Shown in pieces: positions 41,686 to 53,625 of a stretch of 64,000 nt of DNA. The notes beneath the pieces were generated by a model. That model ran no database searches, was not told the DNA's origin, and was given only the letters and a program-made list of their open reading frames with translations. Source of the stretch: Stenotrophomonas tumulicola. GTDB lineage: Bacteria; Pseudomonadota; Gammaproteobacteria; Xanthomonadales; Xanthomonadaceae. The stretch covers positions 248,001 through 312,000 of the forward strand of contig NZ_JACGXS010000004.1 of NCBI RefSeq assembly GCF_014117215.1, given 5' to 3'. A program made the translations under genes and the position numbers. The first letter of the stretch is position 1. Every line of letters begins with the position of its first letter.

Positions 41686-42192
41686 ATGGATACGGTGGCT
41701 GCACCGAGCATCCGTGTCGCCACCGCGGCGGATGCGGCGCTGATCCTGCGCTTCATCCGCGAACTGGCGATCTACGAAAAGGCCGAATCGTCGGTACAGA
41801 CCGATGAGGCCGGCATCCGCGCAAGCCTGTTCGGGCCGGGTGCAACGGCACGTGCGCTGGTCTGCGAAGCCGACGGGGAAGCGATCGGTTACGCGGTGTA
41901 TTTCTACAACTACTCCACCTGGCTGGGTCGCAACGGCATCTATCTGGAAGATCTGTACGTGAGTCCGGAAAAACGCGGGCTCGGCGCCGGAAAGGCGTTG
42001 CTGCGGCACATCGCGCGCATCGCCGTGGCAGAAGGCTGCGGCCGGTTCGAATGGTCGGTGCTGGACTGGAATGCCCCGGCGATCGCCTTCTATGAAGCTG
42101 CAGGTGCCAGGCCGCAGGACGAATGGACCGTATACCGCCTGCAAGGCGACGCCCTGCGCGCATTCGCCGAAAAAGGGGACGGAGGGGATTAA
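41686..42192 (+). CDS. GNAT acetyltransferase, SSAT-like, with repeat-encoded C terminus
   Basis: 168 residues. The acetyl-CoA loop is in EDLYVSPEKRGLGAGKALL (about 88-106; Q/RxxGxG/A form), and the C-terminal half has FEWSVLDWNAPAIAFYEAAGA, wording typical of diamine (spermidine/spermine) N-acetyltransferases. Polyamine as substrate is plausible given speA/D/E in the window but is not shown. The last codons (EKGDGGD) and the TAA stop come from the left arm of inverted repeat copy 3, so the natural end has been altered by the repeat. Follows rpe closely. Confidence 0.87.
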   Translation: MDTVAAPSIRVATAADAALILRFIRELAIYEKAESSVQTDEAGIRASLFGPGATARALVCEADGEAIGYAVYFYNYSTWLGRNGIYLEDLYVSPEKRGLGAGKALLRHIARIAVAEGCGRFEWSVLDWNAPAIAFYEAAGARPQDEWTVYRLQGDALRAFAEKGDGGD

Positions 42193-42247
42193 GTCGCAAT
42201 CAGCCCCGGGGGCCGATTGCGACTTAATCCCCTCCGTCCCCTTTTTC
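42169..42247. repeat. Long inverted repeat, GGGGACGGAGGGG family (copy 3)
   Basis: Perfect 33-bp arms (42169-42201 and 42215-42247) with a 13-base G/C-rich loop. Core AAAAAGGGGACGGAGGGGAT followed by TAAGTCGCAATC. It overlaps the end of the GNAT gene and supplies its stop. A further partial unit (CCGTCCCCTTTTTC) follows at 42249-42262. This copy lies between tandem, not convergent, genes. Confidence 0.87.
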
Positions 42248-42262
42248 ACCGTCCCCTTTTTC

Positions 42263-42292
42263 AAAAAAAAGACCACGCCGTTGCCGGCGTGG
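42263..42292 (-). terminator. Intrinsic terminator on the minus strand
   Basis: Perfect 8-bp stem (42273-42280 with 42285-42292), loop of four, followed on the minus strand by TC and eight Ts. It reads leftward, opposite to every annotated gene nearby. Confidence 0.75.
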
Positions 42293-42385
42293 CCCTGCTG
42301 AAATAGTGGGAGGCTGATCCTGCCTCCATCCGTCTTCCCTGCTATGGCCTTCCATGTTCCGGGGGGATGGTGACAGGTGCATGAC
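42263..42385 (-). ncRNA. Candidate structured small RNA (minus strand)
   Basis: On the minus strand, CCTGTC-A-CCATCC (from 42377 to 42365) pairs with GGATGG-A-GGCAGG (42331 to 42319), a 12-pair stem with one A-A mismatch and one G-U pair. It encloses a second hairpin (ATGG-AAGG-CCAT). A C-rich single strand with CCTCCC (about 42310) follows, then a hairpin CCACGCCG-GCAA-CGGCGTGG and eight Ts (42292-42263), a textbook intrinsic terminator. No minus-strand protein gene lies upstream for this terminator to serve. The enclosed region carries several GGA triplets. The 5' end and promoter are uncertain; about 120 nt is an estimate. Confidence 0.45.
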
Positions 42386-42449
42386 ATTCACCGCGGCGGA
42401 ACGGGGCGCTGCTAGCCTGTGCCACCCCCGACCCACGGTTGCCTTCCGC

Positions 42450-43418
42450 ATGAGCACTCCCCGCTGGCGCTTGATCCTCAATGGAAAATCCGGCGGTGAC
42501 GACGCCGTGCGCGATGCGGTGGCGACGTGGCGCGGGCGTGGTGTCGAACTGGACGTGCGGGTGACCTGGGAAGAGGGTGACGCTGAACGTTACGTCGCCG
42601 AAGCCATCGACCATGGCGTGGATGTCATCATCGCCGGCGGCGGTGACGGAACCTTGAGCGCGGTCGCCGAGACCCTGGCGCATCGCGATGAACCGGCCGA
42701 CGCATTGCCGTCGCTGGCGCTGCTGCCGCTGGGCACGGCCAACGATTTTGCCAGCGCCGGCGGATTCCCCGAAGAACCGTCCGATGCGCTGGGCTTGATC
42801 GCCGCACGGCAGGCCCTGCCCATCGACCTGCTGCGCATCGAGGCAGACGGCCGCACCTGGTGGTGCGCCAATGTGGCCAGTGGTGGCTTCGGCACGCAGG
42901 TCACCGTGGAAACCGACGAGGGACTGAAGAAGGTTCTCGGTGGCCTGGCTTACGTACTTACCGGCATTTCCAGGCTCGGCCGCATCGATCCGATCCAGGC
43001 GCGGCTGCAGGGCCCTGGATTCGAGTGGGAGGGGGGCTTCATTGCGCTGGGTATCGGCAACGGCCGCCAGGCGGGCGGTGGGCAGGTGCTGTGCCCACAG
43101 GCGGTGATCGACGACGGCCAACTGGACGTGACCGTCATCCCCGAGCTGGCGGGGGAGGTGGTGGCGACATTGCAGCAGTTGGTCACCGGCGGCAAACAGG
43201 CTGCGCTGGAACAGGTGGCGACCCGCGCGCGGCTGACCCGCGTGGATGTCCGCACCGAGCAGCCACTGACCTTGAACCTGGATGGCGAGCCGGTGCAGGC
43301 GCGGCATTTCCGCATCGAATGCGTGTCGCGCCGGGTACGCATGCACCTGCCTGCCGATTGTCCGCTGCTGGGCAAGGAACGCACGGCCGGGGTTCCGCCC
43401 GGCGGGAAGCTGCGCTAA
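42450..43418 (+). CDS. yegS: YegS-like lipid kinase (diacylglycerol kinase catalytic domain)
   Basis: 322 residues. The nucleotide-binding [14 protein letters not shown] motif (about 64-77) and PLGTANDFA (about 92-101) define the DAGK catalytic fold. The C-terminal beta-sandwich includes [21 protein letters not shown] (split at family sites) and [10 protein letters not shown]. coli YegS phosphorylates phosphatidylglycerol in vitro; the physiological lipid is unclear. Start at [18 protein letters not shown]; the upstream frame overlaps the candidate small RNA and lacks coding character. Confidence 0.9.
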
Positions 43419-53369: not shown

Positions 53370-53425
53370 GCCAAATTAAAAGAAAAGGCCTGATCTTTCG
53401 ATCAGGCCTTTTCTTTTAATTTGGC
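53370..53425. terminator. 26-bp perfect inverted repeat, tRNA-side terminator
   Basis: Arms 53370-53395 and 53400-53425 are perfectly complementary (GCCAAATTAAAAGAAAAGGC... on the left) around a TTTC loop. The inner AAAAGGCCTGATC/GATCAGGCCTTTT forms a bidirectional terminator for the leftward tRNA transcript and backs up the rpsI terminator. The outer end overlaps the encoded CCA of tRNA-Gln. Confidence 0.85.
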
Positions 53426-53496
53426 TGCCCCGGATGGATTCGAACCACCGAATGCCTGAGTCAGAGTCAGGTGCCTTACCGCTTGGCGACGGGGCA
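53422..53496 (-). tRNA. tRNA-Gln (CTG anticodon)
   Basis: 75 nt including encoded CCA. Acceptor stem TGCCCCG/CGGGGCA, D-arm CGCCAAGCGGTAAGGC, anticodon arm CCTGA-CTCTGAC-TCAGG giving anticodon CTG, T-arm GGTGGTTCGAATCCATC. Second gene of a two-tRNA transcript behind tRNA-Met. Confidence 0.95.
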
Positions 53497-53548: not shown

Positions 53549-53625
53549 TGGTGGCTATGGGTGGACTCGAACCACCGACCCCAGCATTATGAGTGCTGTG
53601 CTCTAACCGGCTGAGCTACATAGCC
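53549..53625 (-). tRNA. tRNA-Met (elongator, CAT anticodon)
   Basis: 77 nt including encoded CCA. Acceptor GGCTATG/CATAGCC, D-arm TAGCTCAGCCGGTTAGAGC, anticodon arm CAGCA-CTCATAA-TGCTG with CAT, T-arm GGTGGTTCGAGTCCACC. The GG..CC first pair and overall wording match elongator Met rather than initiator tRNA. Confidence 0.95.

Follow-up and report, generated by a model that had tools for sequence, protein, structure and literature searches.

A conserved small RNA gene of the Xanthomonadaceae with a proposed Pho-box-like promoter and its possible role as an antagonist of RsmA

The small RNA locus and its neighbours

The window analysed in this study is the whole stretch of 64,000 nucleotides, and positions refer to it. 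Between a plus-strand GNAT acetyltransferase gene (41686-42192) and the divergent neighbour yegS, which encodes a lipid kinase (42450-43418, plus strand; TIGR03702 above the cut-off) and is given as context only, the minus strand carries a Pho-box-like direct repeat, a putative -10 element and a small RNA gene as redefined here. The repeat, ATGTCAT-GCAC-CTGTCAC at 42370-42387 on the minus strand, has an 11-bp period and 13 of the 14 consensus letters, and is proposed as a PhoB site. The hexamer GAACAT (42354-42359, minus strand; family consensus GANNAT) follows 10 nt after the box. The small RNA of about 85 nt would occupy 42263-42347 of the minus strand, and its 5' end, deduced from the spacing to the -10 element, is placed within a few nucleotides (42348-42345) near the C/A of GGCCATAG. 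On the same strand, a first GGA site is found in the AGGGA of the 5' stretch (42336-42340; A[AG]GGA in the family), and a second (42320-42318) in hairpin 1 (42309-42327), which is composed of GGAGGC, the loop AGGATCA and GCCTCC. The gene ends with an intrinsic terminator (42263-42296, minus strand; stem 42296-42269, T8 42270-42263), which supplies the U tail. The first-pass annotation had correctly placed a leftward terminator with T8 on this strand; its stem is real, although the scan gave 12 pairs, 8 of them G-C, and not the 8 pairs originally counted.

The RNA gene lies between rpe and trpE. The order rpe/GNAT, RNA, yegS/trpE was retained in most of the 80 listed loci selected by pattern: one flank is formed by rpe, in some loci together with the GNAT gene, and the other by yegS plus trpE, some loci ending before a neighbour. 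The RNA was also present in several loci in which YegS was not detected, such as L182, L187, L207, L239 and L248.

Some other elements of the window were recorded. The plus-strand TGCTAGCCT at 42410-42418 resembles an extended -10 element for yegS; it is conserved as GGCTAGCA on the opposite strand in much of the genus and is replaced in some loci that keep the RNA. Directly after the GNAT gene, and facing the terminator of the small RNA, lies a near-perfect 78-bp palindrome (42170-42247), which recurs as a dispersed repeat; at least 84 matches were counted over the two strands of the genome, corresponding to about 40 places (40 of 61 candidates scored). Two minus-strand tRNA genes are located at 53425-53496 and 53552-53625.

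Conservation and distribution of the small RNA gene

A DNA match to 42255-42420 was obtained in 89 of the 91 genomes of the genus, including the source genome. The two genomes lacking it were G080, an assembly of 690 contigs with 10% contamination, and G082. The latter is near-complete (3.2 Mb) and matched neither by DNA nor with either covariance model, which may reflect a natural loss. Eighty-eight copies from plain DNA matches were aligned with MAFFT (alignment A1); the truncated locus L090 and L091, a partial second copy in G087, were dropped from A1 and from the stem count of 88, and L091 also from the box count of 89. Four blocks stand out in A1, namely the repeat TGTCAY-N5-TGTCAY, GANNAT, an almost invariant GGCCATAGCARGGANGAYGGATGGAGGCAGGATCAGCCTCC, and the terminator, whose letters vary while its pairs are retained.

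A covariance search across the Xanthomonadaceae, a check that the first-pass annotation had proposed, was made with a model built from the 88 copies, which matched 271 of the 395 family genomes, the source genome included, in 34 of 54 genera at E<=0.001, of which 13 genomes were weaker than 1e-5 by table reading and may partly be chance. A pattern scan of named genomes returned at least 117 stretches, of which 80 loci are listed, under the names Stenotrophomonas, Xanthomonas, Pseudoxanthomonas, Lysobacter, Luteimonas, [Pseudomonas] hibiscicola and two family- or order-level bins. One further locus among the 80 (L243, 5943-5972) lies on a contig labelled as the Rickettsia endosymbiont of Bradysia, and carries trpE-yegS-RNA-rpe-purC at Stenotrophomonas-like identity; this is likely a mis-binned contig. 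In an order-wide search, the first model also gave weak matches in nine genomes outside the family (E 4.8e-5 to 9.9e-4), which were taken as chance. A second model, built from 100 family copies and applied order-wide at E<=1e-5, matched 103 of 398 genomes, all 103 within the family; among these 398 genomes no match outside the family was obtained at 1e-5, under stricter filters by which some weak matches were lost. For the comparisons below, 20 cross-genus loci and 20 low-scoring divergent copies were picked by hand from the listings of model matches. As to second copies, the partial one on contig C8 of G087 has no Pho box, and further model matches were seen in G311 and G322.

No Rfam family reached the cut-off in this region or in the copy of X. 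euvesicatoria. The Moco riboswitch and microRNA-type matches of a permissive Rfam scan were below the cut-off and were rejected, the microRNA-type ones sitting on the neighbouring palindrome (about 42163-42253); the NsiR4 and P17 matches on the X. euvesicatoria copy were rejected on the same ground. A literature search covering titles and abstract openings found no description of this RNA.

Secondary structure and covariation

The redefined 85-nt RNA had a fold z-score of -4.7, and none of 500 shuffles folded equally well. Among the 79 distinct rows of A1, 99.5% of cells pair, and the covariation score of 0.312 was reached by 0 of 500 shuffles. The terminator contributed changes on both sides in seven of its nine pairs within the genus, and in all nine among the 20 cross-genus copies, in which 100% of cells pair; the cross-genus alignment was fitted to the model and thus leans towards structure, while A1 was not fitted. 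Two measures did not rise above shuffles, i.e., further pair types in A1, one of five measures (reached by 130 of 500), and the number of pairs with both-sided changes in alignment A3 (123 of 500).

In hairpin 1, all letter cells were paired in the 79 distinct rows, with one pair showing a both-sided change and four pairs invariant, and the 20 cross-genus copies gave one such pair and five invariant ones. The hairpin varies more in the 20 low-scoring copies (GGGC/GCCC, GGGGC/GCTCC, GGGGG/CCTCC), where 96.5% of its cells are paired and the innermost pair is lost in four.

The structure drawn in the first-pass annotation was a different one, a 12-pair stem with an A-A mismatch formed by CCTGTCACCATCC with GGATGGAGGCAGG. 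These arms are present in the sequence and do pair in the minimum-energy fold of 42263-42385 (z -2.67; 3 of 200 shuffles equally good). At least 12 of the 13 positions were paired in only two of the 88 same-genus loci, this window being one of them, and 7 or 8 positions were kept in 64 of the 88. Its 5' arm shares letters with the second half of the Pho-box-like repeat, upstream of the predicted start. On the 88 same-genus loci, the 12-pair stem was therefore rejected as an RNA structure, and the compensating changes sought in it were found instead in the terminator and the short hairpin. Nor is the CCTCCC stretch simply unpaired, as had been supposed, since its CCTCC forms the 3' side of the conserved GGAGGC/GCCTCC hairpin.

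The proposed Pho-box-like promoter

The Pho box has been described as two 11-bp repeats with a CTGTCAT-like 7-mer (PMC2648988), and PhoB promoters are said to require a strict spacing between box and promoter (PMC10294691). Of the 89 same-genus loci, 87 have the pattern GTCAY-N6-GTCA, and in every one of these it stands exactly 20 nt ahead of the GGCCATAGC block. The same spacing was kept in 19 of the 20 cross-genus loci, in 78 of the 80 loci selected by pattern and in 16 of the 20 low-scoring divergent copies. The four divergent misses still have 9 of the 10 letters, three of them at 20 nt and the fourth at 18 nt. Over 165 stretches, the columns of the GTCA cores carried 1.85-2.00 bits, and the five columns between them 0.15-0.30. 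In the hexamer of the same stretches, A at position 2 and T at position 6 had a frequency of 1.00; GANNAT stands 10 nt after the box and looks as a -10 element would be expected to look. The same layout of box, 10 nt and hexamer precedes phoB of this genome (TIGR02154 above the cut-off), and boxes of 11/14 were located upstream of this phoB and of both pstS genes, their places being worked out by hand.

Two of the 80 loci had too little upstream sequence for box scoring and for the GacA-site test below. Among the other 78, the best box within 330 nt upstream scored 12 or 13 of 14 at 61 loci, as compared to 8 to 10 in 73 of 78 shuffles. Four of the 78 shuffled upstreams reached 11/14, and at up to one mismatch the genome contains 28 matches to the box pattern, compared with 15 to its reverse, so the motif alone would prove little. 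The weight of the box evidence rests on its fixed place: direct repeats with an 11-bp period stand at a constant 10 nt from the -10 element. Control of the small RNA by PhoB is, on this pattern, highly probable.

Two other Pho-like boxes were seen. At L100 (1500-2040) in this genome, a box of 12/14 is followed after 10 nt by CATAGT and then by an ORF of 157 amino acids. The ORF matched neither Pfam nor NCBIfam at E 0.001 and is a candidate for an unknown Pho gene. At L097 (1459-1518), a box of 13/14 lies directly upstream of a TonB-dependent receptor gene (plug domain; gene cut by the locus end).

The GGA sites

The first-pass annotation had noted GGA triplets, which are indeed present, and had suggested that they would suit CsrA/RsmA. 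According to one paper (PMC7652899), proteins of the CsrA family recognise GGA within loops, in the case of RsmE an ANGGAN hexaloop, and a single dimer can span two sites separated by 10-63 nt, with an optimum above 18 nt. In the RNA of this study, A[AG]GGA near the 5' end was found in 130 of 130 distinct 60-nt starts, of which 34 come only from loci found by a pattern containing these GGA letters. GGA lies in the apical loop of 129 of the 130 distinct copies, though the length of stem and loop varies in divergent ones. The loops observed were AGGATCA, AGGATAA, GGGATCA, TGGATT, GGGATT, AGGATC, AGGAC, TGGAT, AGGGAC, ATGGAA, ATGGAG and ACGGAG; in the last six, which belong to divergent copies, the flanks change and GGA stays constant, and three copies carry an ANGGAN hexaloop as seen with RsmE (PMC7652899). 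Measured from start to start, the distance between the sites is 18 nt in 123 of the 130 copies and 16, 17 or 19 nt in the rest, as against a published optimum for bridging of more than 18 nt (PMC7652899), and the sequence between them is replaced in divergent copies. The genome encodes one protein of the CsrA family.

Several observations bear on how far this pattern can be read. In the 80 pattern-selected loci the GGA letters were part of the search pattern and are therefore always present, and alignments A2 and A4 are biased towards these letters by the covariance models. Although GGA was found in a loop and in the 5' stretch, the first site is mostly paired in the fold of this strain (unpaired probability 0.04-0.17). 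Each 38-nt core has three or four GGA triplets (170 copies), including the conserved pair in the loop and the 5' stretch; only these two are family-wide, the GGA at core positions 19-21 being kept in 40 of 88 rows, and the many motifs by which a CsrA antagonist would hold several dimers were not found. Invariant letters outside the GGA sites (CCAT, and GACG in the main genera) are not accounted for by RsmA. The best GacA-type site (TGTAAG-N6-CTTACA) had 6-9 of 12 letters in 78 loci, one of them at 9, versus 6-8 in shuffles, and no CsrB/Rsm family of Rfam reached the cut-off in the region or in the X. euvesicatoria copy. Binding of RsmA nevertheless fits the conservation pattern best, and is slightly favoured as the main mode of action.

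Discussion

A real small-RNA gene common to Xanthomonas, Stenotrophomonas and their relatives is almost certainly present at this locus, as conservation and covariation strongly suggest. The minus-strand finding of the first-pass annotation is thus very probably a widely conserved small-RNA gene whose structure had been wrongly drawn. When phosphate is scarce, phosphorylated PhoB would bind the Pho box and recruit RNA polymerase to the -10 element. Transcription would yield an RNA of about 85 nt that is ended by its own terminator, as the sequence and the covariation of its pairs indicate. Its two GGA sites, 18 nt apart in the 5' stretch and the apical loop, would most likely hold one RsmA dimer, and phosphate starvation may in this way draw RsmA away from its mRNAs. 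For the whole chain of a real gene, activation by PhoB and binding of RsmA, we put the odds somewhat below even, near the product of the odds for its three parts. The boldest reading, with a probability of about 0.42, is a family-wide RsmA antagonist of the Xanthomonadaceae of minimal size, which would hold a single dimer on its two GGA sites, answer to PhoB instead of GacA, and reset the Csr/Rsm network in phosphate starvation.

If this is true, phosphate starvation would directly reset the Csr/Rsm network in Xanthomonas, Stenotrophomonas, Lysobacter and relatives. According to a paper of 2014, no homologs of rsmB had been identified in Xanthomonas, and the pathway of RsmA there was poorly understood (PMC3937308); RsmU, which was reported later, derives from a 3' UTR (PMC7694677). 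If conserved RNA of this kind combines a promoter of the PhoB type with sites of the RsmA type, it would offer a candidate antagonist together with a signal. Phosphate supply would thereby be linked to a regulator that acts on virulence and motility in bacteria that include plant pathogens, an opportunistic human pathogen and biocontrol strains. Should RsmA turn out not to be bound, a family-wide small RNA with a Pho box and no Rfam 15 family at the cut-off (two copies scanned) would still deserve a name.

Most terminator-ended small RNAs act by base pairing, and the main rival to RsmA binding, or a second activity beside it, is a PhoB-activated RNA whose 5' stretch pairs with mRNAs, perhaps with Hfq at the U-rich 3' part, the GGA letters being incidental or secondary. 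This is a substantial possibility, which we rate as rather less probable than not. The conserved CCAT and other letters outside the GGA sites speak for it, as do the U tail and a linker of the AATTTTC type in several genera. A purine-rich stretch is an unusual seed, and the seed here would be purine-rich; moreover, divergent copies lose the middle (GACGGGC to GAAACGC, and others) and keep both GGA sites. The complement of 22 letters (one N), with at most three mismatches, gave one match each in nine of nine same-genus genomes, which was the gene itself, and one of four other genomes had a match, with three mismatches; the 17-letter complement with at most two mismatches gave 202 matches in 41 genomes, the gene itself included, against 270 for the reversed pattern. 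Among the matches listed for these two complements no long complementary target was found, a result with little bearing on short seeds. That both activities can reside in a single RNA, as McaS illustrates (PMC10729762), speaks for the rival as well.

The remaining alternatives concern the promoter and the nature of the gene itself. PhoB is not the only winged-helix regulator that binds direct repeats of about 11 bp, so that the upstream repeat may be bound by an OmpR-family regulator other than PhoB, and the strict repeat is missing in 2 of 89, 1 of 20, 2 of 80 and 4 of 20 loci. We consider this improbable, as the repeat is the published Pho consensus with fixed promoter spacing and the same layout stands before phoB. 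Far less probable still is a short open reading frame (ATGGAAGGCCATAGC...) in place of a non-coding RNA. In 137 of 170 copies the frame stays free of stop codons throughout the 150-nt piece, and changes at core positions 15, 18 and 21 show a 3-nt rhythm, both of which would suit such a frame. Yet the start is ATG in 120 of 170 copies, ATG, GTG or TTG in 134, and ATA, ATC, GTA, ATT or GTC in 36, and differences of one or two bases in the length of the linker ahead of the terminator put the frame out of register. The would-be start also overlaps the -10 element, so the predicted transcript begins after it. The short frame was judged unlikely on the variation of its start codon and the changes in linker length. 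That the structure first drawn amounts to chance hairpins beside a terminator is scarcely credible for the gene as a whole: this reading holds for the 12-pair stem alone, which is nearly confined to this strain, and is already contradicted for the redefined gene by its conservation and covariation throughout the family.

The RNA may be compared with several known systems. It shares with sX13 of Xanthomonas that it is a small RNA conserved in Xanthomonadaceae; however, three C-rich loops and a locus downstream of polA are described for sX13 (PMC3771888), whereas the RNA here is G-rich and lies between rpe and trpE. Identity with sX13 was rejected on the GGA in the hairpin loop and the rpe-trpE locus, and an sX13-like action, to which the C-rich loops of the first-pass annotation pointed, does not agree with a purine- and G-rich conserved RNA, a paired C-rich stretch, a locus elsewhere and the lack of an Rfam family at the cut-off. 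RsmU of Xanthomonas campestris is an RsmA-binding RNA of the same bacterial family, and is described as processed from the 3' UTR of XC1332 (comEA) (PMC7694677), in contrast to the RNA between rpe and trpE with its own proposed promoter. EsrL of E. coli is a small RNA with a reported upstream PhoB site, although PhoB binding in K-12 is reported as not detected (PMC10294691). This likeness, and that to CsrC of Yersinia below, is drawn from published descriptions. PhoP senses magnesium and related signals, not phosphate, and in this the Yersinia system differs from the RNA here. In Yersinia pseudotuberculosis, CsrC is described as a CsrA antagonist activated by PhoP/PhoQ and not GacA/UvrY (PMC4950607).

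McaS of E. coli both base-pairs and binds CsrA with few GGA sites, four in number (PMC10729762). The RNA of this study likewise has few GGA sites and could both pair and hold CsrA/RsmA; it differs from McaS in belonging to no Rfam family at the cut-off and in having no known shared control or target. As compared to CsrB/CsrC and RsmX/Y/Z/W, which sequester CsrA/RsmA, it has only two family-wide GGA sites where CsrB-type sponges have many, and it carries a PhoB-type box, no GacA-type site beyond shuffle level and no Rfam match. With these antagonists it has in common the GGA in an apical loop, a second GGA within bridging range, the terminator and, apparently, a two-component regulator that drives it.
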